From a virus: a stretch of 51,108 nt of DNA. Every line of letters begins with the position of its first letter. The first letter of the stretch is position 1. This document shows positions 1,734 through 49,210 of the stretch, in pieces. Position numbers and translations under genes: made by a program. The notes under the pieces are model-generated. The model was not told the origin of the DNA. It did not search any database and saw nothing but the letters and a program-made list of their open reading frames with translations. Where the stretch lies: positions 1-51,108 of the IMG/VR virus record IMGVR_UViG_3300032245_000828, one strand, 5' to 3'.

Positions 1734-2741
1734 TTATGGATTTCTTACGCCATTGATTACCCAGAAGTCTGAACTCATGGCGGTATTCTGTATTACTTGG
1801 TAAGGCATGTAGAAGTATCCACGGTCGCCCCAAGTGCTTCCCCAACTGTTTTTACAAATAAATCTACCATTGCCTGTAATGCCACCGTAGTTATCATTGT
1901 AGCCTACGATACAGACAGCGTGTCCACCTAGTAGGCTTTCTGTGTTTACATTTGGATAAGGCATTATGCCGTTGCTGGTGATATTGTAAAAACTACGATA
2001 GACTAAAAATCCCACTACCACTGGGTTACCTGTGGCTAGGGCGTTTTTTACTGCGGCAAAATCTGCACAGCGTTGATATCCTGTGACTTTTCTATTGGCC
2101 GCGTCTGTGTAGGCCGCATTACTGGGTTTAACTTTAAATTTGGTCGTGTCATAAGGCCAAAGACTTTCCACTGGAGCACCATATGTATAGCAGGCTTTAA
2201 TACCATCTCTAATATAAGCACCACTATCTTGATTTACAGTACCTTCTAACAGGCGTTCTTGATAGTAGATAAACAATCTACTGATTTCTAAATTCTTACT
2301 ATTTTTCTTATCAACAATTTCAATGGCTTCAGCAATGGCATTACCTGTGCATGAACCTAGTTGTCCTTGATTTTCTACTGGCTGTGCGTATGCTCGTAGA
2401 TCAATGCTGGTAGGAATGGCAGATAGCGGTTGCATCTGCCATATATGATCTCTTGGATCAGGACGGTCTGCCCGCCAATGGAACTTTGAATAACCCGGAA
2501 GTGGTCCTGGTCCTGGTCCTGGATCTTCACTGCCATCTGCTAGGCCGCCATCTAATAAACCATCCGATAATGGAGTGTATTCAAACGCCGCAGTACCACC
2601 TTCGTGATAATATTTTGCTGTTGCGTTTGAAATTGCGGTTACGCTATTCCAGTGATCACCTAACCAGGTGTAGGTAACAGCATTTTCTGCTACCCATTGT
2701 TGTCCTGTTGTAGGATTCTGTGGAAATGTTAGTGTTGTCAT
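1734..2741 (-). CDS. Virion-associated papain-like (C1A) cysteine peptidase
   Basis: A 335-residue protein in two parts. Residues 1-60 contain a phage structural start (PQNPTTGQQW, then VTYTWLGDHW), probably a virion-docking module, followed by a Gly/Pro-rich linker near residues 62-83. Residues 110-330 form a papain-family catalytic domain. Visible are the oxyanion Gln125 and nucleophile Cys131 in QGQLGSCTGNA, His274 in GGHAVCIVGY, and Asn298 in KNSWG followed by WGDRGYF. All catalytic residues are present, so the enzyme should be active, and no long inhibitory propeptide is evident. Its place between fibre genes suggests a tail-borne protease that trims phage fibres or cuts host surface protein. 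That role is inferred; the family assignment is strong. Confidence 0.85.
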   Translation of the reverse strand: MTTLTFPQNPTTGQQWVAENAVTYTWLGDHWNSVTAISNATAKYYHEGGTAAFEYTPLSDGLLDGGLADGSEDPGPGPGPLPGYSKFHWRADRPDPRDHIWQMQPLSAIPTSIDLRAYAQPVENQGQLGSCTGNAIAEAIEIVDKKNSKNLEISRLFIYYQERLLEGTVNQDSGAYIRDGIKACYTYGAPVESLWPYDTTKFKVKPSNAAYTDAANRKVTGYQRCADFAAVKNALATGNPVVVGFLVYRSFYNITSNGIMPYPNVNTESLLGGHAVCIVGYNDNYGGITGNGRFICKNSWGSTWGDRGYFYMPYQVIQNTAMSSDFWVINGVRNP

Positions 2742-21802: not shown

Positions 21803-22211
21803 CTTTGGTATTCCAACTAATTTCCCAGTCTTTGAAGTCTGCCGCTAGGCAATCAACTTTATAGTCAAGTCGTCCACCGACAATTTCTTGTATCTTGTTT
21901 TTACCTGTATTTCTAATGCCGTTTAATCCGTGAGTGAGTGCTAGGTCGCCACCTTGCATCCCTCTGCGGTAAGCAGACTCGTTGTGCCAAATATGTAGAT
22001 TCATTTGACTTACCACTACAATAGCACGAATAGTCTCTGCTGTTATTTCGGCTTTGGTATCATCTAAGATAACCTGTATGTCATGTACAATGTCTGCAAT
22101 TTCTTGACTGTATTCTGCTTTGTGTTCAGTAATAAACACTTCTTTAAGTTGCACAATACTCAAACGATCAATTAGATCGCCCAAGGTATGTAGGTATTTT
22201 CGTTCGCTCAT
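21771..22211 (-). CDS. Hypothetical protein (possible distant DUF4254-like)
   Basis: A 146-residue mostly helical protein: LGDLIDRLSIVQLKEVF, AEITAETIRAIVVVSQMNLHIWHNESAYRRG, LTHGLNGIRNTGKNKI. The WHNE..R pattern followed by an LNxIRNTGKNKI helix is reminiscent of DUF4254 proteins found in sugar-nucleotide clusters, but the match is weak and by eye only. It starts overlapping the epimerase stop by four bases. Its context implies a role in the glycan pathway, perhaps binding a sugar or a partner enzyme. Confidence 0.55.
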   Translation of the reverse strand: MSERKYLHTLGDLIDRLSIVQLKEVFITEHKAEYSQEIADIVHDIQVILDDTKAEITAETIRAIVVVSQMNLHIWHNESAYRRGMQGGDLALTHGLNGIRNTGKNKIQEIVGGRLDYKVDCLAADFKDWEISWNTKDDNNSEQAQN

Positions 22212-23143
22212 AGGTTTGTAAAACTCCTGTTGTTGTTAGTTATTATCAGAGGATACGCTTCAATTAACTGTTTGATTCCGTAGTCTAAGTCGTATTTTGG
22301 TTGCCATCCTAGACGTTCAATCTTTTCATTGGATACTATATAATTCCGCTTGTCAAAGTCTTCTTTGAACTCATCTTGTTTAATAACAAGAGAGGGAATA
22401 TGCTGTTTGATCTTTTCTGCTAATTCAAGTTTGCTTAGGTTTGCTGTGCTCAATCCTACGTTATATACCTGTCCTCTACATTGATTATAGTTTGCTATCA
22501 TAAACTCAAAGGTGCGGGCAATGTCTTGTACATGGATATAGTTACGTTTAAAATGTGCTTCAAACAACACTAGGTATCCATCTGTTACACTTTTATAGAC
22601 AAAGTCGTTGACCAACAGGTCTTGACGCATACGAGGACTTACTCCAAAAACTGTAGCCAGTCGTAGGACAACACCGTTGCCTTTTTTAAGCACATACTCT
22701 TCTGCATCACATTTGGTTTCGGCATAAAGACTCAAAGGTTTAAACGGACTATCTTCTGTGATAACATCTGGACTGGATCCATACTGACTATTAGTATTGG
22801 GAATTATCAGTCGCTGATCGTCTCTAAGAAAGTCTACAATTTTTCTAACGTGATAGTAATTTACATCAATGGCCAACTGCGGATTTTCTTTACAGGCCGG
22901 CATTCCCACAATTGCGGCCAAGGGAATAATCACATCATGTTCTTCTACTAACAATCGTAATTGTTCTGTGTTTCTAACATCGCCCTTGATAAACTTAAAT
23001 CCCGGACGTTTGAACAGATGTAGTACAGATAGTTGTTTGTACAACAAATTATCAAGTACAGTAACAGAGTATCCGTTATCTAACAGGTGCTCTGATAAAG
23101 TAGATCCCAAATATCCTGCACCACCTGTTATCAATACTTTCAT
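22208..23143 (-). CDS. NAD-dependent sugar epimerase/dehydratase (extended SDR)
   Basis: A 311-residue protein read from the ATG at 23143, which overlaps the upstream stop as ATGA; a ten-residue upstream extension is rejected. It has the Rossmann loop VLITGGAGYLGS, Asp in VLDNL, KGDVRN, PLAAIVG and the active-site YAETK (YxxxK). It ends with a GWQP substrate-domain motif. Extended SDRs of this type epimerise, dehydrate or reduce nucleotide sugars. The usual Ser/Thr of the catalytic triad falls in IPNTNSQYG. It is one of three SDR genes in this operon; the exact sugar cannot be read from sequence. Confidence 0.82.
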   Translation of the reverse strand: MKVLITGGAGYLGSTLSEHLLDNGYSVTVLDNLLYKQLSVLHLFKRPGFKFIKGDVRNTEQLRLLVEEHDVIIPLAAIVGMPACKENPQLAIDVNYYHVRKIVDFLRDDQRLIIPNTNSQYGSSPDVITEDSPFKPLSLYAETKCDAEEYVLKKGNGVVLRLATVFGVSPRMRQDLLVNDFVYKSVTDGYLVLFEAHFKRNYIHVQDIARTFEFMIANYNQCRGQVYNVGLSTANLSKLELAEKIKQHIPSLVIKQDEFKEDFDKRNYIVSNEKIERLGWQPKYDLDYGIKQLIEAYPLIITNNNRSFTNL

Positions 23144-24105
23144 TTGAATTCGTCCTTGTTGTCTAGATACCAATCGTGTGCTTTCTTAAGACCATCGGCT
23201 AGGGAAGTAGTTGCAGACCAACCCAATGCTTCTTTGATCTTGTTAGAATCAATACGACGTGTAGGAATCATGCTAGGCTTTCCTTTAACATACTCGATTG
23301 GATTATCATTGCCTACTAGTTGTTTCATTGTGGCCAACACATCATTTACAGAATATACGTTGTTAGAACCTATGTTGAATACATCGTACGTTTCTTGTTT
23401 TTCAATTACTAACTGTAGCGCATCAACGAAGTCATCAATGTAGAGTAGGTCACGTAATTCTGTGCCATCACCCCAAACAGGAATAGGATTCATGTTGTCT
23501 GCTACTTTACGGATAGTTGCAGGAGTAACGTGACATTTGGCAAAGTCGTACTTGTCGTGTGGTCCAAATAGGTTAGCAGGCCGTATCACAATAGTGGTCA
23601 TAGGGTTAGGCAAATACTTGGCGTACAATTCACATTGTACTTCTGCATAGCGTTTCATCCAACCTACTGGGAAGTAAACAGGATATGGCTCATCAAACAA
23701 GAAGTCTGTTTCTATAACAGGCTCATCCCCTTTAGGTGGGTATACTGTATTACTACTGATAAAGATATACTTCTTAACCTTGTTACGGTAAGCACTGTCA
23801 ATTAAGAAGTTGTTCATAGCCACATTAGGTGTAACATGTGCTAGAGGATCTTGTACTGTGTCTACAGCATTGCTGGTACTTGCGGCGGCATGTATAACAA
23901 CGTCTACATCTTTGGTAACTGCTAGGCAATCTTCATAGGCCATTAAGTTACCACTTACATATTCAACAGCATCGTGTTTGATACGAGGTTGGCGAGTATG
24001 TATGTGTACACGAATATCAGTGTATCCATCTGCAATTAATTTGTTTGTTAGGTTTTGTCCTACTAGGCCTGCACCGCCTGTGATTAAAATTTTAGAGTTT
24101 TTCAT
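23140..24105 (-). CDS. NAD(P)-dependent nucleotide-sugar reductase/epimerase, GDP-fucose synthase-like
   Basis: A 321-residue extended SDR. It shows ILITGGAGLVGQ, VVIHAAAS, IFISSNTVYP, and YPVYFPVGWMKRYAE, in which the YxxxK motif is not in the standard place. RPANLFGPHDKYD and LRDLLYIDDFVDA follow. RPANLFGPHD.YD and the DDF motif are typical of the GDP-4-keto-6-deoxymannose epimerase/reductase (Fcl) branch. It is close in type to the SDR at 24812-25786, so the pathway may contain two reductive steps. It follows a 2OG oxygenase with a one-base overlap. Product likely a deoxy sugar; inferred. Confidence 0.8.
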   Translation of the reverse strand: MKNSKILITGGAGLVGQNLTNKLIADGYTDIRVHIHTRQPRIKHDAVEYVSGNLMAYEDCLAVTKDVDVVIHAAASTSNAVDTVQDPLAHVTPNVAMNNFLIDSAYRNKVKKYIFISSNTVYPPKGDEPVIETDFLFDEPYPVYFPVGWMKRYAEVQCELYAKYLPNPMTTIVIRPANLFGPHDKYDFAKCHVTPATIRKVADNMNPIPVWGDGTELRDLLYIDDFVDALQLVIEKQETYDVFNIGSNNVYSVNDVLATMKQLVGNDNPIEYVKGKPSMIPTRRIDSNKIKEALGWSATTSLADGLKKAHDWYLDNKDEFK

Positions 24106-31048: not shown

Positions 31049-31786
31049 TTAATCATTAACTGCGTATTTATTGATATAGGACATCAGTTCGTTAGCAAAT
31101 AGTTGATGCGGTATTTCGTTGTGATGCCAATACTTTGCCTTGGGATTTTTGTATCCAAGGTCAGCATATTTCCAATAGAATATAGGATCGTCCATATATC
31201 GAGTGTAATCTATTTGACTTTTGTAAAAATCTAAATGCTGATCTTTACCAAACATGTGCATGGTGTTACACATCAAGTATTCAATGTTCTGCATCTTAAA
31301 GAAATACTGCGTCTGTAGGACAGCACCGGCGCTTATAGTTTCTATATAGGTTAAGTTGTCCGCCATGAACGCATGACACTTGGCAATCATCTCACGTTCT
31401 TCTTTATACGCACCTGTATATCCAAAATTAACTCTAAAGAAATGATTAGATAGTTCTGAACTAAAATCACTAGATTGATTCCATTGAGTATAATCTGTGG
31501 TCCAGGCTGTGGGAATTTCTAATCTAGAACTTTCTGTCCAAGCAACTAAAACCATTAGATCCATAGTCGTTGGATCATAGCATTTAGAAAACCATTCTAA
31601 TACAGTACGGGCAATACCTTGATTGCTTGCACCGTTAGATGCAATGTTGATTGCTCGGCGGCCTATCTGTTCAGCCAACAGGTTACCAAAACTATGTTTG
31701 CGGTTATACAGACTATCTTCAGTTCCGTCTATTTCAGAACCTGCGGCATGACTGCATCCTACAACTAACAACAATCTTTCTTTCAT
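31049..31786 (-). CDS. SGNH-like hydrolase, fourth copy
   Basis: A 245-residue protein with LLLVVGCSHAAGSE (Ser12 as putative nucleophile), the block III motif NGASNQGIART, and a late HHNEIPHQLFANEL segment carrying candidate Asp/His positions. The block spacing matches SGNH hydrolases, though the catalytic His is less certain. It differs from the pair at 19361 and 20921 and lies just after the B12-binding radical SAM gene, overlapping its stop by four bases. Possible glycan or lipid esterase or acyltransferase. Confidence 0.6.
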   Translation of the reverse strand: MKERLLLVVGCSHAAGSEIDGTEDSLYNRKHSFGNLLAEQIGRRAINIASNGASNQGIARTVLEWFSKCYDPTTMDLMVLVAWTESSRLEIPTAWTTDYTQWNQSSDFSSELSNHFFRVNFGYTGAYKEEREMIAKCHAFMADNLTYIETISAGAVLQTQYFFKMQNIEYLMCNTMHMFGKDQHLDFYKSQIDYTRYMDDPIFYWKYADLGYKNPKAKYWHHNEIPHQLFANELMSYINKYAVND

Positions 31787-33999
31787 TTCTTTTTAATACT
31801 GCTGATAGGAATAGTATACATTACTTCCTTTTCAGGAATAACAACTTTAGATGCACTAGGTACATCTATGGCATACTCTTTCCAGTTACTCCAATCTCCT
31901 GTATCAACATAGTGATACTTAAAAGAAAAATCTGTAACCTTGTTGAGAGCAAACTCTTCTTGTATCAAAGCCCAATACTGCATGTCATCTTTACCATTCT
32001 CCATGTCCCAGTCAGGTTTAGCAAGTTGTCTAGCACGAACTGCGGTATTACTTTTAAGTCTGCTGAAATCGTTCATATAGAATGGGCCACAGCGATCTGG
32101 ATCTTTTGTCTGATACGGTTCATTTTTTACTTGATCAAAGTTAAAGTCAAAATCCGCAGACCATTGTCCGCTATCAGTTATACTGAATTTGAATACAGCA
32201 GTATACATAGGAGGACCGTATTGTGTACCAAACTCCTTTAAATCAATTTCAGGATTGAAGTGTATTTCTGCATCATATCCTCCCCTGGTCTTCCACAACA
32301 TTCTAAAAAACATCCACATCTCATTAACCAATGTATCAGCAAAGGGATTGATGTTTGGTTTGATAATATCGTAGTTAAACTTTTCGTATTCAATTTCTTT
32401 TATATTAGAGGAATCGTGTAATTTAATCTTGTAGTGTTCTTTTGCTAGATTATCTCTAACTGGATACCCAAACTCTGTTTCAGTGATGCTACGCATACAG
32501 TCTAGGAATATATAGAACGCTTTTACTCGGGTCATTACATGAGTCCCGCCAAAAGAAAAATCTTTAGTAATCCAATGTTCCTGATATCTAAAATCGCTGA
32601 TGTTAAACTTTCCTGGATTCTGTCCTACAATGGTTTCCGCTCCGAGGCCAAAGCCCAACCCAGCACCAACATTGTTAATGTTCATGTTTCGTATGCGCCA
32701 TAACAGTGTCATGCTGTCAGCATAGTCTTGAAAGTTTTCTGTAGGGAATCCTACAATCCAGTTTGTTGCGGCATAGATACCTACTTCTTTACCGTCACGG
32801 AAGTTTTGTTCCATCTCAGCAATGGTAACACCCTTGTCCATGCTGTCTAATACTTTTTGACTGCCTGATTCAATTCCGTAGTTTAATACAATACATCCGC
32901 CTGCCTTGAGATCTTTAAAGTATTCTAAGTCCATACGACCATCGCAACGGGCATAGCCTGTCCAATGTATAGGCAATTTCTTTGCATCAACTGCCTTGCA
33001 GAACGCACGTAGTTCTTTCAAGTTTCCGTTGACTAGACTGTCAATGAACCATATAACATCTGTACCTTTGTTATAGTATAGCCATTCTATTTCTGCAATA
33101 AGATCAACGGCTTGACGCTGTCTGTACTTCCAGAAGTGTGTCTCTTCGCAGAATGTACACTTGGCTGTACAGCCTCTACTGATCTCACTGTTAACTCCGT
33201 TAGGAATCTTATACTGATTAAAATCAATAGACTCATAGTCAGGCATAGGAAGACCATTGATGTTGATGCGTTGATCAACGGGCTGTTTGATAAACACTTG
33301 TTCTTTGTGTTCGGTTCCTGCTTCTATTTCATCTAGAATATCCAGTAGTGCTTGTTCGCCCTCGCCGTTGACAATGTAATCATAGCAGGGTTGAACATTG
33401 AACCATCCTTTTTGTACGTTACTACCTCCAACGGCTAACTTGATATCCGGACGTCTACGTTTGATTTCATGTGCCATCCAATTAGTAGGTTGTTCACTGG
33501 TGTAGTATTGTGTGAATCCTATTATTGCAGGATTTAATTTTAATATTTCTTCAATGGCTTCTTCTAGTAATGGTCCTAGCAAAGGATGTATATCTTTCCA
33601 GTAACTATCACCTAGCCAATGCCATGTAGCACTAGGATCCCATAGTTTAAAAGGTAGTTTACCATTAGGTTGCCAGTCATTACGATAAGCATTGTGCGCT
33701 CTTATGTTAAGATCAAAAATGTGTGTTTCGTAACCGGCACTTTTGGCAACACCACTTAGCCTAGCCAAATTGAACGGAGGCATGTCAGGTGCCCATTCAG
33801 GACACATAACTAAAACCAATTTTGTGTTTCTTGTTTTATAATCTATGTATACTGGAGTTAGATTAGATTGTTGTGCTTTTTTAGCATAAGGTGCAATAGC
33901 ATTCATCATTGCTTGATGACGTGCATCTGCTATATCGGCAGGTACCGGATCGGGCAACTTGGCCGATGTCTTTTTTAATCCCTGTAACCCAAAGTCCAA
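31783..33999 (-). CDS. B12-binding-type radical SAM protein, 738 residues
   Basis: Residues ~55-235 look like a cobalamin-binding-type Rossmann domain (VLVMCPEWAPDMPPFNLARLSGVAKSAGY, AVGGSNVQKGW, YIVNGEGE), though no clear DxHxxG lower ligand is visible. The radical SAM core starts at SRGCTAKCTFC (Cys277, Cys281, Cys284), followed by DVIWFIDSLVNGN and NYGIESGSQKVLDSMDKG, both typical of this class. The last ~230 residues are an unrecognised extension. These enzymes catalyse methylations, ring changes or thioether chemistry. It is the most downstream of five consecutive radical SAM genes. Confidence 0.8.
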   Translation of the reverse strand: MDFGLQGLKKTSAKLPDPVPADIADARHQAMMNAIAPYAKKAQQSNLTPVYIDYKTRNTKLVLVMCPEWAPDMPPFNLARLSGVAKSAGYETHIFDLNIRAHNAYRNDWQPNGKLPFKLWDPSATWHWLGDSYWKDIHPLLGPLLEEAIEEILKLNPAIIGFTQYYTSEQPTNWMAHEIKRRRPDIKLAVGGSNVQKGWFNVQPCYDYIVNGEGEQALLDILDEIEAGTEHKEQVFIKQPVDQRININGLPMPDYESIDFNQYKIPNGVNSEISRGCTAKCTFCEETHFWKYRQRQAVDLIAEIEWLYYNKGTDVIWFIDSLVNGNLKELRAFCKAVDAKKLPIHWTGYARCDGRMDLEYFKDLKAGGCIVLNYGIESGSQKVLDSMDKGVTIAEMEQNFRDGKEVGIYAATNWIVGFPTENFQDYADSMTLLWRIRNMNINNVGAGLGFGLGAETIVGQNPGKFNISDFRYQEHWITKDFSFGGTHVMTRVKAFYIFLDCMRSITETEFGYPVRDNLAKEHYKIKLHDSSNIKEIEYEKFNYDIIKPNINPFADTLVNEMWMFFRMLWKTRGGYDAEIHFNPEIDLKEFGTQYGPPMYTAVFKFSITDSGQWSADFDFNFDQVKNEPYQTKDPDRCGPFYMNDFSRLKSNTAVRARQLAKPDWDMENGKDDMQYWALIQEEFALNKVTDFSFKYHYVDTGDWSNWKEYAIDVPSASKVVIPEKEVMYTIPISSIKKK

Positions 34000-34002
34000 A
34001 AT

Positions 34003-34986
34003 TTACTCCTTGACTATTTCTATTATTCTTTTCTTAGGAATCATTATATCAGTGCCGCAATGACAATGTTCCTTTTGACATATAATTTTCTTAGGACCAA
34101 TTTCCAGTGTATCCCAAAGTATATTGCCTAGTACCTTAGTCTGTCCACAGGTTGCCATACTGACCTGACCAATCTGATCAATCCAGATACTGTCTCCGAT
34201 ATTACATTCCCAACCTTTAAAGAAGTTATGACGTTCTAGGATTATCTCGTTACTGTACAATCCTGTCTTTTCTCCGTCGTCCCAGTGTGCTTGAACATAG
34301 AATGGATCTTTTAGATAAGGCTTAGGAATAGTGAACTGTTGATCAACAGTGTGTTCTTTTAAGAATTGTGCCTTGTTAGAATCCTTGTATTCCCAAGGAC
34401 CTGCGTTTTTACTCATCTCATCAAACAATGGAGTCCACTCAATAAAATAGTTTGGCAATTCTTCCTTGAGTTGATTACCAAAGTCTACTACTTCCCAGAA
34501 ACGTTCTTCATGCATCAACATCTTACAACTGAAGTAATTGAATTTGTCGCAGAGGAACTTGGCGTTTTCCAAGTACTTGTCTTTGTCTGCATACTCTACA
34601 TGGAAACTGGCGACAACATCGTCAAACAACTGATAGTTACGCTTCCACCAACTTAGAGGTCTAGAAAAATTAGTGTTGACTGCTACTACTGTGTTTGGTA
34701 AGTTCTCTCTGATCCACTCAATGATAGGCACAAGATTGCGCCATAGGGTAGGCTCTCCTCCACTAAAGAAGAACTTGAAGTTTTCATAACCTAGGTCTTT
34801 ATACTTGTTAGTAATGACTTCTAGATTTTTAATGTAGGTAATTAGATTTTCGTCATTACGGCTATCCCCGCAATAGTTGCCTGGATTACAGTAACTACAT
34901 TTGTAATTACAAAAATTACTCACTTGCCATACTACATCTAAGTAGGGCTTGTTTGGTTTTACTTCTAAGAGTTTTCTTCCGTCCAT
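34003..34986 (-). CDS. Radical SAM protein with C-terminal auxiliary cysteines
   Basis: A 327-residue enzyme with the cluster motif CNYKCSYC (Cys26, Cys30, Cys33) and a nearby extra Cys in NPGNYCGD. FFFSGGEPTLWRNL is the SAM-binding GGE motif. The C-terminal region has further cysteines (GWECNIGDS, MATCGQ, CQKEHCHCG) arranged like a SPASM/twitch auxiliary cluster site. SPASM enzymes modify peptides or small molecules. It overlaps the upstream radical SAM gene by 22 bases. Substrate unknown; peptide, sugar or lipid are all open. Confidence 0.85.
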   Translation of the reverse strand: MDGRKLLEVKPNKPYLDVVWQVSNFCNYKCSYCNPGNYCGDSRNDENLITYIKNLEVITNKYKDLGYENFKFFFSGGEPTLWRNLVPIIEWIRENLPNTVVAVNTNFSRPLSWWKRNYQLFDDVVASFHVEYADKDKYLENAKFLCDKFNYFSCKMLMHEERFWEVVDFGNQLKEELPNYFIEWTPLFDEMSKNAGPWEYKDSNKAQFLKEHTVDQQFTIPKPYLKDPFYVQAHWDDGEKTGLYSNEIILERHNFFKGWECNIGDSIWIDQIGQVSMATCGQTKVLGNILWDTLEIGPKKIICQKEHCHCGTDIMIPKKRIIEIVKE

Positions 34987-36221
34987 TCTAATACGTCCTC
35001 TAGTTCTGGAATAGATTCTAACAAATCTTCATTCCTTAGTTTATCTGTTTCTGCTTGGATTTCAAAGAACTCTTTAAGACCATCTGCCCTAGGTTGTCCT
35101 TTTAATGCTTCCTGTACCATTGCGGCAGAATTTTGTACGCTGACACAATATCCAGGATTCATTTTAATCTTGTTCCATTTTAAAAATAATCTATCTTTGT
35201 AGAAACTAGGAAGTGTTCCTACATTAGCCCACCACGGATGTGTCAACATGTTTAGGCGTAGACAATTATCATTGGTAGGATCGATATAATTATTCTTTAC
35301 CATGTAATCAAAGAAGTCTGGAAAATGCCACACATTCCAAACACTGATTGTAGGAGTTAGATTAAACTTAACATGTGGTACATGTTGTTTAAGCATCTTG
35401 ATGTTATCTTCTATTTCTGCCCAGTCTGCACCAGAACGCAGATATTCTAAGTTCTTACCCATACCATCTAGGCTGGCAAATATTTCTACATTCTTAAACT
35501 GTTTCCAATAGTTAATAACATTCTTACCTTTAAACTTGAACACACTGAAGTTAGTTGTATATGTTAGTTTAATATCTGTGTTACCTAATTCGATCCATTC
35601 ATCTAACATCTTATAGTGTTCGTTAGTAATTAAACTTTCGCCCCCTGCAAAGTATACTTCGTCTGTATCTTTTAGATAAGGTTTAACTTTAGTAAAGAAG
35701 TCACCTGTTTCGTTGTTACTTACAACCATATCGTCCATACGGAAATATTGTTTTAATTTTTCCACACCTCCCTTGTTCTCAATAAACTCTTTGGCATGCA
35801 GACTACTGAACTCAGGACCGCAACTACGACATTTGAAGTTACAGATGTTACTCCAACGAATGTCCACATACTGCAATTTAAAGTTATCTATACTACCATC
35901 ATCATTAGTGGCATTGACTAGATCAATGTTACTATTGCCGCGGACAGCATTAGCACTTTGTCGAAGACTCCATTGTCCTACACGTTCAACATCATAGCAA
36001 CGATTACAACAATCGCTATTCGTTCCTTCCAACATGTTCTTGCGTAGTTGCTTATACTCGTCAGTGTTCATCATCTCAATGACACTTTCTTTATCTGTAG
36101 TACTCACAGGTAAATCACTGTTAGCCATACAGCAGGGCAGGATCTTTTTGTTTGGTAGTGCATGGAAGTGTAGCCAAGGAAGGATACAGAATGTGCTTGA
36201 CTCTGGAATCTTATCAAGCAT
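34965..36221 (-). CDS. Radical SAM protein with N-terminal twitch-like cysteines (copy 1)
   Basis: A 418-residue protein. The N-terminus reads FCILPWLHFHALPNKKILPCCM (Cys12, Cys30, Cys31), with a CCNRC cluster at residues 71-75, before the radical SAM motif CNFKCRSC at Cys127, Cys131, Cys134. YFAGGESLI supplies the SAM-binding GG motif. So the auxiliary cysteine domain precedes the core, the reverse of classic SPASM enzymes. The next upstream gene (36214-37437) has all these motifs at the same positions. Likely needs two or more Fe-S clusters. Product unknown. Confidence 0.82.
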   Translation of the reverse strand: MLDKIPESSTFCILPWLHFHALPNKKILPCCMANSDLPVSTTDKESVIEMMNTDEYKQLRKNMLEGTNSDCCNRCYDVERVGQWSLRQSANAVRGNSNIDLVNATNDDGSIDNFKLQYVDIRWSNICNFKCRSCGPEFSSLHAKEFIENKGGVEKLKQYFRMDDMVVSNNETGDFFTKVKPYLKDTDEVYFAGGESLITNEHYKMLDEWIELGNTDIKLTYTTNFSVFKFKGKNVINYWKQFKNVEIFASLDGMGKNLEYLRSGADWAEIEDNIKMLKQHVPHVKFNLTPTISVWNVWHFPDFFDYMVKNNYIDPTNDNCLRLNMLTHPWWANVGTLPSFYKDRLFLKWNKIKMNPGYCVSVQNSAAMVQEALKGQPRADGLKEFFEIQAETDKLRNEDLLESIPELEDVLEWTEENS

Positions 36222-45445: not shown

Positions 45446-45486
45446 AATACCCCGCTGTATAGGTTCGCTCTGCGAGCATCACTGGG
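45446..45486 (+). repeat. 41-bp direct repeat, copy 1
   Basis: Identical over 41 bases to 45554-45594, starting AATACCCCGCTGTATAGG and ending in TCACTGGG. It contains the short palindrome GCTC-TGC-GAGC. The first part (AATACCCCGCTGTA) occurs a third time at 45375-45388. Confidence 0.9.
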
Positions 45487-45553: not shown

Positions 45554-45594
45554 AATACCCCGCTGTATAGGTTCGCTCTGCGAGCATCACTGGG
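45554..45594 (+). repeat. 41-bp direct repeat, copy 2
   Basis: Second exact copy. It and the shorter copy at 45365-45388 are both preceded by GTATCGAGTG, giving a shared 24-base unit (45365-45388 and 45544-45567). Confidence 0.9.
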
Positions 45595-46622: not shown

Positions 46623-46651
46623 TTGACATTGTGGTAAAACCTTGCTATAAT
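46623..46651 (+). promoter_or_regulatory. Sigma-70-type promoter with GGTAAAACCTTGC spacer
   Basis: TTGACA (46623-46628), spacer TTGTGGTAAAACCTTGC, TATAAT (46646-46651). Its predicted start point coincides with the ATG of the next gene. A GTAGGGTCTTTG sequence occurs twice just upstream (near 46552 and 46602). Confidence 0.88.
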
Positions 46652-47720: not shown

Positions 47721-47747
47721 ACATGCATACACTAACAAGGAGCGATG

Positions 47748-48449
47748 ATGTTCAAACTACTTTCCACAGCGAATCCCAAGATCCAAAAGGGTACTAAGAA
47801 GGGCTTCCTTACATTCATTCTGCATCTTGCTCCAGCAGACTTGAGCGGCAAGGAAGTATGCCCAAAACGCACCGCAGGATGTACAGCGGCGTGCCTCAAT
47901 ACAGCAGGACGCGGCGGCATGTTCAAGCGCGGTGAGAATACCAACATGATCCAAAAGGCACGTATTCGTAAGACTAAGATGTTCTTTGAAGATCGTGACA
48001 CTTTTATGGAGTACTTGGTTGCTGACATTAATAAGGCTATCAAGTTCGCGGCCAAGATGAGTTTGACGCCCGTGTTCCGCTTGAATGGTACTAGTGACTT
48101 GTCGTGGGAGAAGTATACAGCCGCATACGGTATGAACATCTTTGAATTGTTCTCCCAAGTACAGTTCTACGACTACACCAAAGTACTTGGACGTAAGGTT
48201 AGCCACTTGCCCAACTATCACCTAACGTTTAGCAAGGCTGATGGTAACGATGCAGACTGCCAGCAGGCTCTGTTGCAGGGTATGAACGTGGCTACAGTGT
48301 TTGATGAGATTCCTGCAGGCATGTTCAGTGCCGATGAAACAGATTTGCGCTTCTTAGATCCCAAAGTGGGCGTGATTGGTTTGAAGGCCAAGGGTCGCGC
48401 AAAGAAAGACTACAGCGGCTTCGTAATCCGTTTGAAGGAAGTTAAATGA
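47748..48449 (+). CDS. GP88-family phage protein
   Basis: A 233-residue protein; the second of two adjacent ATGs is chosen because AAGGAG is then five bases away. It begins MFKLLSTANPKIQKG and has LHLAPADLSGKEVCPKRTAGCTAACLNTAGRG, a pattern found in phage gene-product-88-type proteins. The cysteines (C-x6-C-x3-C) look like a metal or Fe-S site. RIRKTKMFFEDR and FRLNGTSDLSWEKY follow, also family-typical. Biochemical function is not established. It is coupled by an ATGA overlap to a small membrane protein. Confidence 0.75.
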   Translation: MFKLLSTANPKIQKGTKKGFLTFILHLAPADLSGKEVCPKRTAGCTAACLNTAGRGGMFKRGENTNMIQKARIRKTKMFFEDRDTFMEYLVADINKAIKFAAKMSLTPVFRLNGTSDLSWEKYTAAYGMNIFELFSQVQFYDYTKVLGRKVSHLPNYHLTFSKADGNDADCQQALLQGMNVATVFDEIPAGMFSADETDLRFLDPKVGVIGLKAKGRAKKDYSGFVIRLKEVK

Positions 48450-48673
48450 AATTGAACGAAACAATACAATGGGTAGGCACCGCGTTCATCTTGGTGATGT
48501 ATGCATTAATGAACTTCTACCCAGAGTGCCATCCTTGGAACATCGTGGCGGGACTCGGGGGAGCCGTATGCTTCTTTGCTTGGTCTAAACGTGTGGCTAA
48601 TATGCAACAGATGATCATCAATGGTGTAGCAATAGCCCTGTGCGTAGTAGGGTTATTCAAGGCTTGGGGTTGA
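48446..48673 (+). CDS. Small membrane protein, three segments
   Basis: A 75-residue protein with hydrophobic stretches near residues 9-24 (VGTAFILVMYALMNFY), 31-45 (NIVAGLGGAVCFFAW) and 56-72 (MIINGVAIALCVVGLFK). The repeat-like architecture of loops and Gly-rich helices resembles a small inner-membrane protein with SemiSWEET/CBU_0592-like size, but no family is claimed. It overlaps the GP88-like gene by ATGA. Possibly alters host membrane function early in infection. Confidence 0.65.
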   Translation: MKLNETIQWVGTAFILVMYALMNFYPECHPWNIVAGLGGAVCFFAWSKRVANMQQMIINGVAIALCVVGLFKAWG

Positions 48674-48698
48674 CAGCAAGGTAAAACCTTGCTATAAT
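48670..48698 (+). promoter_or_regulatory. Sigma-70 promoter of the noncoding RNA candidate
   Basis: TTGACA (48670-48675), spacer GCAAGGTAAAACCTTGC (a perfect inverted repeat, GCAAGG/CCTTGC), TATAAT (48693-48698). Because the repeat is entirely within the spacer, a dimeric regulator could bind it. Confidence 0.92.
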
Positions 48699-48704
48699 AG
48701 AGAC

Positions 48705-48886
48705 ATAGTAAGAAACAAACAGGGTTACCTAGTCCGCTAGGGCCTGTAGCAAGCGAAGAGTTCCGACGGGGACAGGTTGCTACGGGGCATGAAGGCAGTT
48801 GTAAACGAAAGTTTACACGAGTTGCTGGCGGGGCACTAGGACATAATGATTGTCACACCGAACGATAGAGACGGACTAACGGGTAG
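48705..48886 (+). ncRNA. Candidate structured small RNA with its own promoter
   Basis: A strong promoter lies ahead, but the stretch has no ribosome site or convincing gene. A six-pair closing helix joins CCTAGT (48728-48733) and ACTAGG (48835-48840). Within it, CCTGTAGCAA (48743-48752) pairs over ten positions with TTGCTACGGG (48777-48786), and its loop holds a second hairpin GTTCC/GGGAC (48760-48773). A perfect seven-pair hairpin TGTAAAC-GAAA-GTTTACA occupies 48800-48817. The RNA would be about 150-180 bases, ending before the next promoter. It shares GACGGGGACAGGTTG with the segment at 46232. No known RNA family was recognised. Confidence 0.7.
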
Positions 48887-48915
48887 TTGACAAACCCCAG
48901 TATTCTTGCTATAAT
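48887..48915 (+). promoter_or_regulatory. Sigma-70-type promoter
   Basis: TTGACA (48887-48892), 17 bases, TATAAT (48910-48915), with CTTGC just before the -10 as in the other promoters but without the GGTAAAA part. Confidence 0.85.
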
Positions 48916-48943: not shown

Positions 48944-49210
48944 GTGAATATTTCGACACTTGAAGCCTATGTTGCACAGAAGAACACATGGACTCGAATC
49001 TTTAAGGGACGCGAGTTGAGTCTCCTGAATGCCGCAGATCGTCAGGCCATTGCTGACAGCATTGACGCTGACATGAGCCCCGAGAACTTAACATGCGATG
49101 GTGAACTGCCGCCCGCAATGGTGCGTGACAAGATTCGCCGCTTGAGCCGTTGTGCTGAAGAATTGCTCAGCATTGATCCTACTGTAACCTTTTATGAGAT
49201 GGGAGTCTAA
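48944..49210 (+). CDS. Hypothetical protein, GTG start
   Basis: An 88-residue protein beginning at a GTG codon five bases after AAGGAG, the only clear non-ATG start in the region. It is mostly helical (TRIFKGRELSLLNAADRQAIADSIDADM, then AMVRDKIRRLSRCAEELLSID). No family recognised. It is followed one base later by a small membrane-protein gene, so they form an operon with the ferredoxin-like gene beyond. Confidence 0.65.
   Translation: MNISTLEAYVAQKNTWTRIFKGRELSLLNAADRQAIADSIDADMSPENLTCDGELPPAMVRDKIRRLSRCAEELLSIDPTVTFYEMGV

Follow-up and report, generated by a model that had tools for sequence, protein, structure and literature searches.

A previously undescribed structured RNA of large phages with a constant core and variable arms

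Introduction

The purpose of the tRNA arrays, tmRNA and ornate RNAs of large phages is an old puzzle. GOLLD and ROOL are structured non-coding phage RNAs of unknown function that lie in or near tRNA islands (PMC12286853). ROOL is ~660 nt and GOLLD >800 nt in length, compared to ~180-200 nt for the RNA described here. Phage T4 has two stable RNAs, rnaC and rnaD (species 1 and 2 RNA; 139 and 119 nt), which, like the present RNA, lie beside phage tRNAs and for which we know of no function. Permuted tmRNA (RF04321) is a stable translation-related RNA. The put RNAs of HK022 are cis-acting structured leader elements of ~70 nt with two hairpins, which stand at operon heads in two copies per genome, and boxA sites belong to rrn leaders.

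Here we describe an RNA that adds another family to this puzzle. It is a new family within a known kind, the structured phage RNAs of tRNA islands whose functions are little known, and in its setting it is comparable to GOLLD and ROOL. That a new structured RNA family exists in large phages is nearly certain.

Results

A single RNA gene in the window

The window analysed is a 51,108-base IMG/VR virus record (IMGVR_UViG_3300032245_000828), which holds a single copy of the previously undescribed RNA of ~180-200 bases. All features described below are on the plus strand. The promoter of the RNA gene, TTGACA-17-TATAAT at 48670-48698, was found without a mismatch where the original prediction had placed it, and a promoter occupies the same position in most stand-alone relatives. 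Its -35 box overlaps the stop codon of an upstream 75-aa ORF, and the transcript probably starts near 48705. The same prediction had seen no plausible gene in this stretch, and we found no ORF of ≥40 aa on either strand between 48674 and 48943. The product probably works as a stable RNA and not as a protein-coding one. The window copy lies outside tRNA islands, and the window has one tRNA.

The structured RNA extends from about 48717 to 48899, as delimited by the match to the core covariance model R1 (127 positions; match at 48717-48849, 75.2 bits, E 7.5e-15), fold z-scores and pair counts, and comprises the R1 core match, the arm P4 and the 3' strand of the outer helix. The outer closing helix, P0, is formed by GGGTT at 48722-48726 and AACCC at 48893-48897, the latter within the downstream promoter; it measures 5 bp in the window copy compared to ~20 bp in most relatives. 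The core helix, P1, is supported by covariation and pairs CCTAGT-CCGCTAG (48728-48740) with 48825-48831 and 48835-48840 of the strand CTGGCGG-GGC-ACTAGG (48825-48840), leaving a three-base bulge. It encloses arm P2 (48741-48788), which has a nested hairpin, GTTCC/GGGAC, with a GACG loop, and arm P3 (48794-48823), a GAAA-capped hairpin (48800-48806/48811-48817) assigned from the fold. A conserved AUGAAG (48789-48794; AUGAAR family-wide) lies ahead of P3, and a conserved UAAUGA (48844-48849) precedes the 3' arm P4 (48850-48893; helix ~48851-48892), which consists of TGTCA/TGACA with an inner hairpin and an AGACGGA loop. The original prediction had located a structured RNA that is indeed there, but the structure reaches ~48897, and P0 and P4 had been missed. 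Likewise, the six-pair closing helix it described is present, but P1 has seven further pairs (48734-48740/48825-48831).

A second promoter, TTGACA-17-TATAAT at 48887-48915, precedes the gene at 48944 and overlaps the 3' end of the RNA. In the window copy the -35 box of this promoter coincides with the 3' strand of P4, so that one DNA stretch serves both as RNA helix and as -35 box. Such an overlap was found in nine members among the matches listed; beside the window copy, it is seen with an exact consensus at loci L006, L032, L150 and L192 and at L084, L120, L127 and L144, which are close relatives. In L084 and L127 a P4 mismatch faces an unchanged -35 box, a sign that this strand may be constrained by the promoter as well. 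Nothing at the 3' end of the RNA could be established as an intrinsic terminator.

The promoter spacer contains an inverted repeat, GCAAGG (48676-48681)/CCTTGC (48687-48692), with GGTAAAACC inside. The prediction had pointed out this palindrome; the repeat is there, but it turned out to belong to a general promoter signature of these phages. Across all fetched phage contigs, GGTN2-4ACC occurs in the spacers of 108 of 987 distinct near-consensus promoters, compared to 5.2 expected from shuffled spacers. The window alone has four exact consensus promoters with such a spacer (GGTAAAACC or GGTTTTACC), at 46623, 47283, 47692 and 48670. Given this enrichment, a special role of the palindrome was rejected. 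The palindrome characterises the promoters of these phages, lies outside the RNA and is perhaps a phage operator. At loci L011, L024, L037 and L039 the promoters of the RNA carry another inverted repeat, TTCATGTGC-TATAATAA-GCACATGAA (or TCTATGTGC...GCACATAGA), around the -10 box.

The plus strand folds

The minimum-energy fold contains all three helices that had been proposed, namely 48728-48733/48835-48840, 48743-48752/48777-48786 and 48800-48806/48811-48817, the last of which appears as 48801-48806/48811-48816 in the best fold. The fold z-score was -2.66 for 48700-48886 (equalled by 2 of 200 shuffles) and -3.21 for 48717-48899 (equalled by none of 200), compared to only -1.13 for the reverse strand. 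At several positions of the core, GU or UG pairs occur frequently or without exception. Together, the z-scores and the GU pairs at many positions identify the plus strand as that of the RNA, and selection acts on the plus-strand RNA. The same observations bear on the idea that the locus is a DNA-level element, such as an origin or a recombination or packaging site, in which the hairpins are incidental. Its inverted repeats, its promoter palindromes and its single copy per genome would suit such a site. However, the GU and UG pairs would mismatch in the other strand, the plus strand folds much better, and the element is conserved in one orientation downstream of promoters, which makes this reading extremely improbable.

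A family with one copy per phage genome

A gp88-family gene lies just upstream of the RNA (47745-48449; Pfam GP88, E 2e-38) and was used to collect 80 related phage loci. An nhmmer search of these loci revealed relatives of the RNA beside the gp88 gene. The opening that they share, GGUUACCUANNCCGYUAGG, served as an exact pattern for a scan of IMG/VR, whose contigs include many near-duplicates, and gave at least 120 matches. Among the matches listed, the full core is present in 82 of 87 distinct sequences; of the remaining five, four are truncated at contig ends and L171 matches by chance. R1 matched 29 of the 81 sources of the gp88 set, window included, and gave 97 matches in 100 loci among the listed matches of the pattern scan. 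Exactly one copy was found in 28 of 29 whole phage records, including records of 320-364 kb.

Of the 29 members that R1 finds in the gp88 set, the exact pattern detects 16, or about half. Its six matches in 84,980 bacterial and archaeal genomes lack the core and were dismissed as chance; with a pattern of such limited sensitivity, the RNA's absence from cellular genomes is unproven.

The original prediction had recognised no known RNA family here, and this was borne out by Rfam 15, which gave nothing in the window at gathering score or at E ≤ 10, and nothing at the RNA in 20 related loci at permissive thresholds. Neither the window region nor one array-type member had a BLAST match among 50,697 GenBank phages. 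R1 had no match in T4, XacN1, RAS14, Limnohabitans phage DC31 or Tunturi_5, a weak negative since the pre-filter gave no candidates; for T4 the threshold was E ≤ 10, and no sequence in common with rnaC or rnaD was seen. Hammerhead, HDV-like, RNase P, SRP, 5S and group I RNAs were dropped by eye because their defining motifs are missing. In the open-access literature searched we found no description of the RNA, only work on the analogous GOLLD and ROOL (PMC12286853).

Pairing is conserved by compensatory change

The original prediction had named conservation of pairing at homologous loci as its check. This was carried out, and at least 100 IMG/VR loci retain pairing by compensatory change. In an alignment of 31 diverse members (A1), 92.4% of pairs were standard, and covariation was 0.314 compared to 0.139 in shuffled and ≤0.088 in slid controls. 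In 59 distinct rows from the 97 matches (A2), 94.2% were paired, with covariation of 0.345 compared to 0.129 when shuffled. Sliding the structure reduced the cells paired from the 92-94% of A1 and A2 to 28-45%. These MAFFT and covariance-model alignments were fitted in part to the structure, and the pair counts and covariation ignore phylogenetic relatedness. P2 is the main source of signal, with seven of its eight pairs changed on both sides among the 59 distinct sequences. The P1 signal comes from column pair 16 and, on one side only, column pair 21; conservation of P1 is partly built in, since the search pattern fixed most P1 bases in most members.

As an independent check, we aligned the window with the five relatives closest to it (A3, ~94% identical). 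Pairing holds in 96.7% of the cells, and both sides have changed in eight pairs, which are spread over P1, P2 and the inner P4 helix and include three in P2 and three compensated pairs in the inner P4 helix. The observed cells paired, double changes and covariation were equalled by 0 to 3 of 500 shuffles, whereas the count of pair types was not above that of shuffles. The GAAA hairpin of P3 is invariant among close relatives and so gives no covariation signal. Collectively, these results show that the structure of the RNA is under selection.

A constant core carries variable arms

Across the family, the core is a long helix, P1, round a junction with conserved UAGG, AUGAAR and GCGRCGGA, on which P2, P3 and P4 are variable arms; most members, within tRNA arrays and outside them, are closed by a P0 of ~20 bp. 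Clustering at 75% identity gave 28 classes of P2, 33 of P3 and 24 of P4, in 56 combinations among the matches listed. One P4 class partners eight P2 classes, and one P2 class partners six P4 classes. Around a constant P1 core, P2, P3 and P4 are reassorted from one member to the next.

P0 pairs with a mean energy of -22.0 kcal/mol between a member's own flanks compared to -10.2 kcal/mol when flanks are swapped between members, a test in which some members are mis-anchored and the bias runs against the result. Because own flanks pair better than swapped ones, the P0 flanks co-evolve. P0 is short in promoter-bounded copies such as that of the window.

Two loop motifs recur in the arms among the matches listed: [AG]GACG in the P4 of 50 of 72 distinct 3' domains, and GACG or GCCG in 50 of 66 distinct P2 arms. 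These loops could mediate contacts, and together with the multi-arm architecture and the tRNA-island setting in common with GOLLD and ROOL (PMC12286853) they would fit an ornate RNA that forms a nanocage or scaffold in the way of GOLLD and ROOL, or a small functional substitute for them. The RNA is, however, three to four times smaller than either, and its loops have no obvious self-complementarity. At gathering score, the GOLLD covariance model (RF02032) matched neither the window nor the RNA of its relatives, and Rfam searches gave no sequence or structure match to GOLLD or ROOL. Moreover, GOLLD co-occurs in 3 of the 15 records tested that carry the RNA, and so is not replaced by it. We regard an ornate role as distinctly unlikely. 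GOLLD itself (201-204 bits) was found at 10468-10931 of L189, where a tRNA lies inside the match, and in the records of L114 and L136, in the same array or genome as the RNA.

Members stand in tRNA arrays or alone

Members fall into two settings: about half lie in phage tRNA arrays, often at the head, and the rest stand alone behind a predicted sigma-70-type promoter of their own. Among the matches listed, 39 of 82 members share the tRNA-island setting of GOLLD and ROOL, with a tRNA gene ≤320 nt downstream (Glu 18, Asp 16, Leu 3, Ser 2), and the arrays hold up to 31 tRNAs. A boxA-like site of the rrn-leader kind, GTTCYTTAAAAA, precedes the RNA in 20 of 39 array members compared to 2 of 41 others (among the matches listed); its distance upstream of the core is 61-70 nt in nearly every case and 186 nt in one, and its background is 0.037 per kb. 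Outside the arrays, most members follow a near-consensus promoter placed at -50 to -59 relative to the core, and many stand-alone members have separate promoters both upstream and downstream of the RNA. Permuted tmRNA was found in 13 of the 15 records tested, sometimes in the same array, as a separate gene whose models the RNA does not match.

The RNA is usually at the head of a transcription unit, which also suits a cis-acting leader. Such a leader would modify RNA polymerase, by put-RNA-like or boxA-assisted antitermination, for read-through of an untranslated tRNA array or gene block. The head position makes this the strongest rival: most members head operons, at a fixed distance past a promoter (-50 to -59) or after a boxA-like site, and the tRNA arrays are long and untranslated. 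Several features argue the other way. Unlike the small paired put elements, the RNA is one multi-arm molecule of ~190 nt, present once per genome of 200-360 kb; stand-alone members often have a second perfect promoter directly after it; the closing helix of ~20 bp resembles a release or processing stem; and the arms are highly variable. On balance we consider antitermination in cis unlikely.

The original prediction had suggested that the RNA could be regulatory, a label that the neighbourhood does not bear out. Downstream lie tRNA-Glu, -Asp, -Leu or -Ser or several unrelated small genes, with no constant gene among them; half of the members are in tRNA arrays, and downstream genes often have promoters of their own, all of which speaks for a stable RNA acting in trans and against a cis-regulator. 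A riboswitch or other cis-regulator of neighbouring genes would be in keeping with the multi-helix junction and its conserved unpaired segments, and a small gene (48944) does follow in the window and close relatives. Nevertheless, no conserved regulated gene follows the RNA, the next gene often has its own promoter, with the -35 box within P4 in nine members, and Rfam gave no match, so that we hold this reading to be very unlikely.

Discussion

The best explanation overall, to which we give a probability of roughly 0.6, is that the locus encodes a phage structural RNA of a new family, present once per genome in large phages, that is processed and acts in trans. The RNA would be transcribed from its own sigma-70-type promoter, as in the window, or, in about half of the relatives, as the leading product of a tRNA operon headed by boxA. 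It would then be excised at the closing helix P0, as rRNA and tRNA precursors are, and the freed RNA would act in trans as a stable RNA or RNP. We infer excision and action in trans from the single copy per genome, the RNA's own promoter outside arrays, the separate downstream promoters and the lack of a constant neighbour. Processing at P0 is less clear for the window copy, since its closing helix has 5 bp and the 3' strand lies inside the next promoter. That the molecule is a trans-acting stable RNA seems likely on this genomic evidence.

The role of the RNA may be to take over or protect translation. This is a guess that we advance tentatively, suggested only by the company of tRNAs, permuted tmRNA, boxA and sometimes GOLLD. 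The constant core would be the part that binds a single conserved partner, with the exchangeable arms adapting to different hosts. A more specific version is unlikely as it stands: the core might dock on one conserved host component (e.g. ribosome, RNA polymerase or a tRNA-processing enzyme), and phages might trade arms by recombination so as to fit or escape host factors that vary, for instance anti-phage defences that cut tRNAs. The RNA is compact enough for structure work, and its single copy, clear core and natural arm swaps can guide experiments.

Further elements were noted in the same phages. A second conserved RNA-like element, GGATACTGTGACCCRCAGGATGAGAAG...GCGGGTGGA...AATTACCGCC, lies between tRNAs at 33 loci, e.g. 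L098 1070-1254 (minus strand) and L194 4227-4409; it has no Rfam match above threshold, and in L098 a weak partial match to permuted tmRNA overlaps it. Permuted tmRNA of giant phages was located at L158 2870-3334, at L098 3150-3572 and in further records. At ~8940-9070 of L152, a structured stretch flanked by CATTATATGTAAGCACATT and GATGTGTTTACATATAATG lies directly 3' of the RNA and has a closing helix of the same type. In the window, a perfect 41-nt direct repeat (45446-45486 and 45554-45594, spacing 108) occupies a gene-poor stretch. The window also encodes a papain-family cysteine protease domain (1734-2741, minus strand; Pfam E 9e-21) amid probable tail or fibre genes, and two radical SAM proteins (31783-33999 and 34965-36221, both minus strand), one of which also has a B12-binding domain; a nucleotide-sugar epimerase-like gene lies near them (22208-23173), which makes a metabolic block unusual for a phage.
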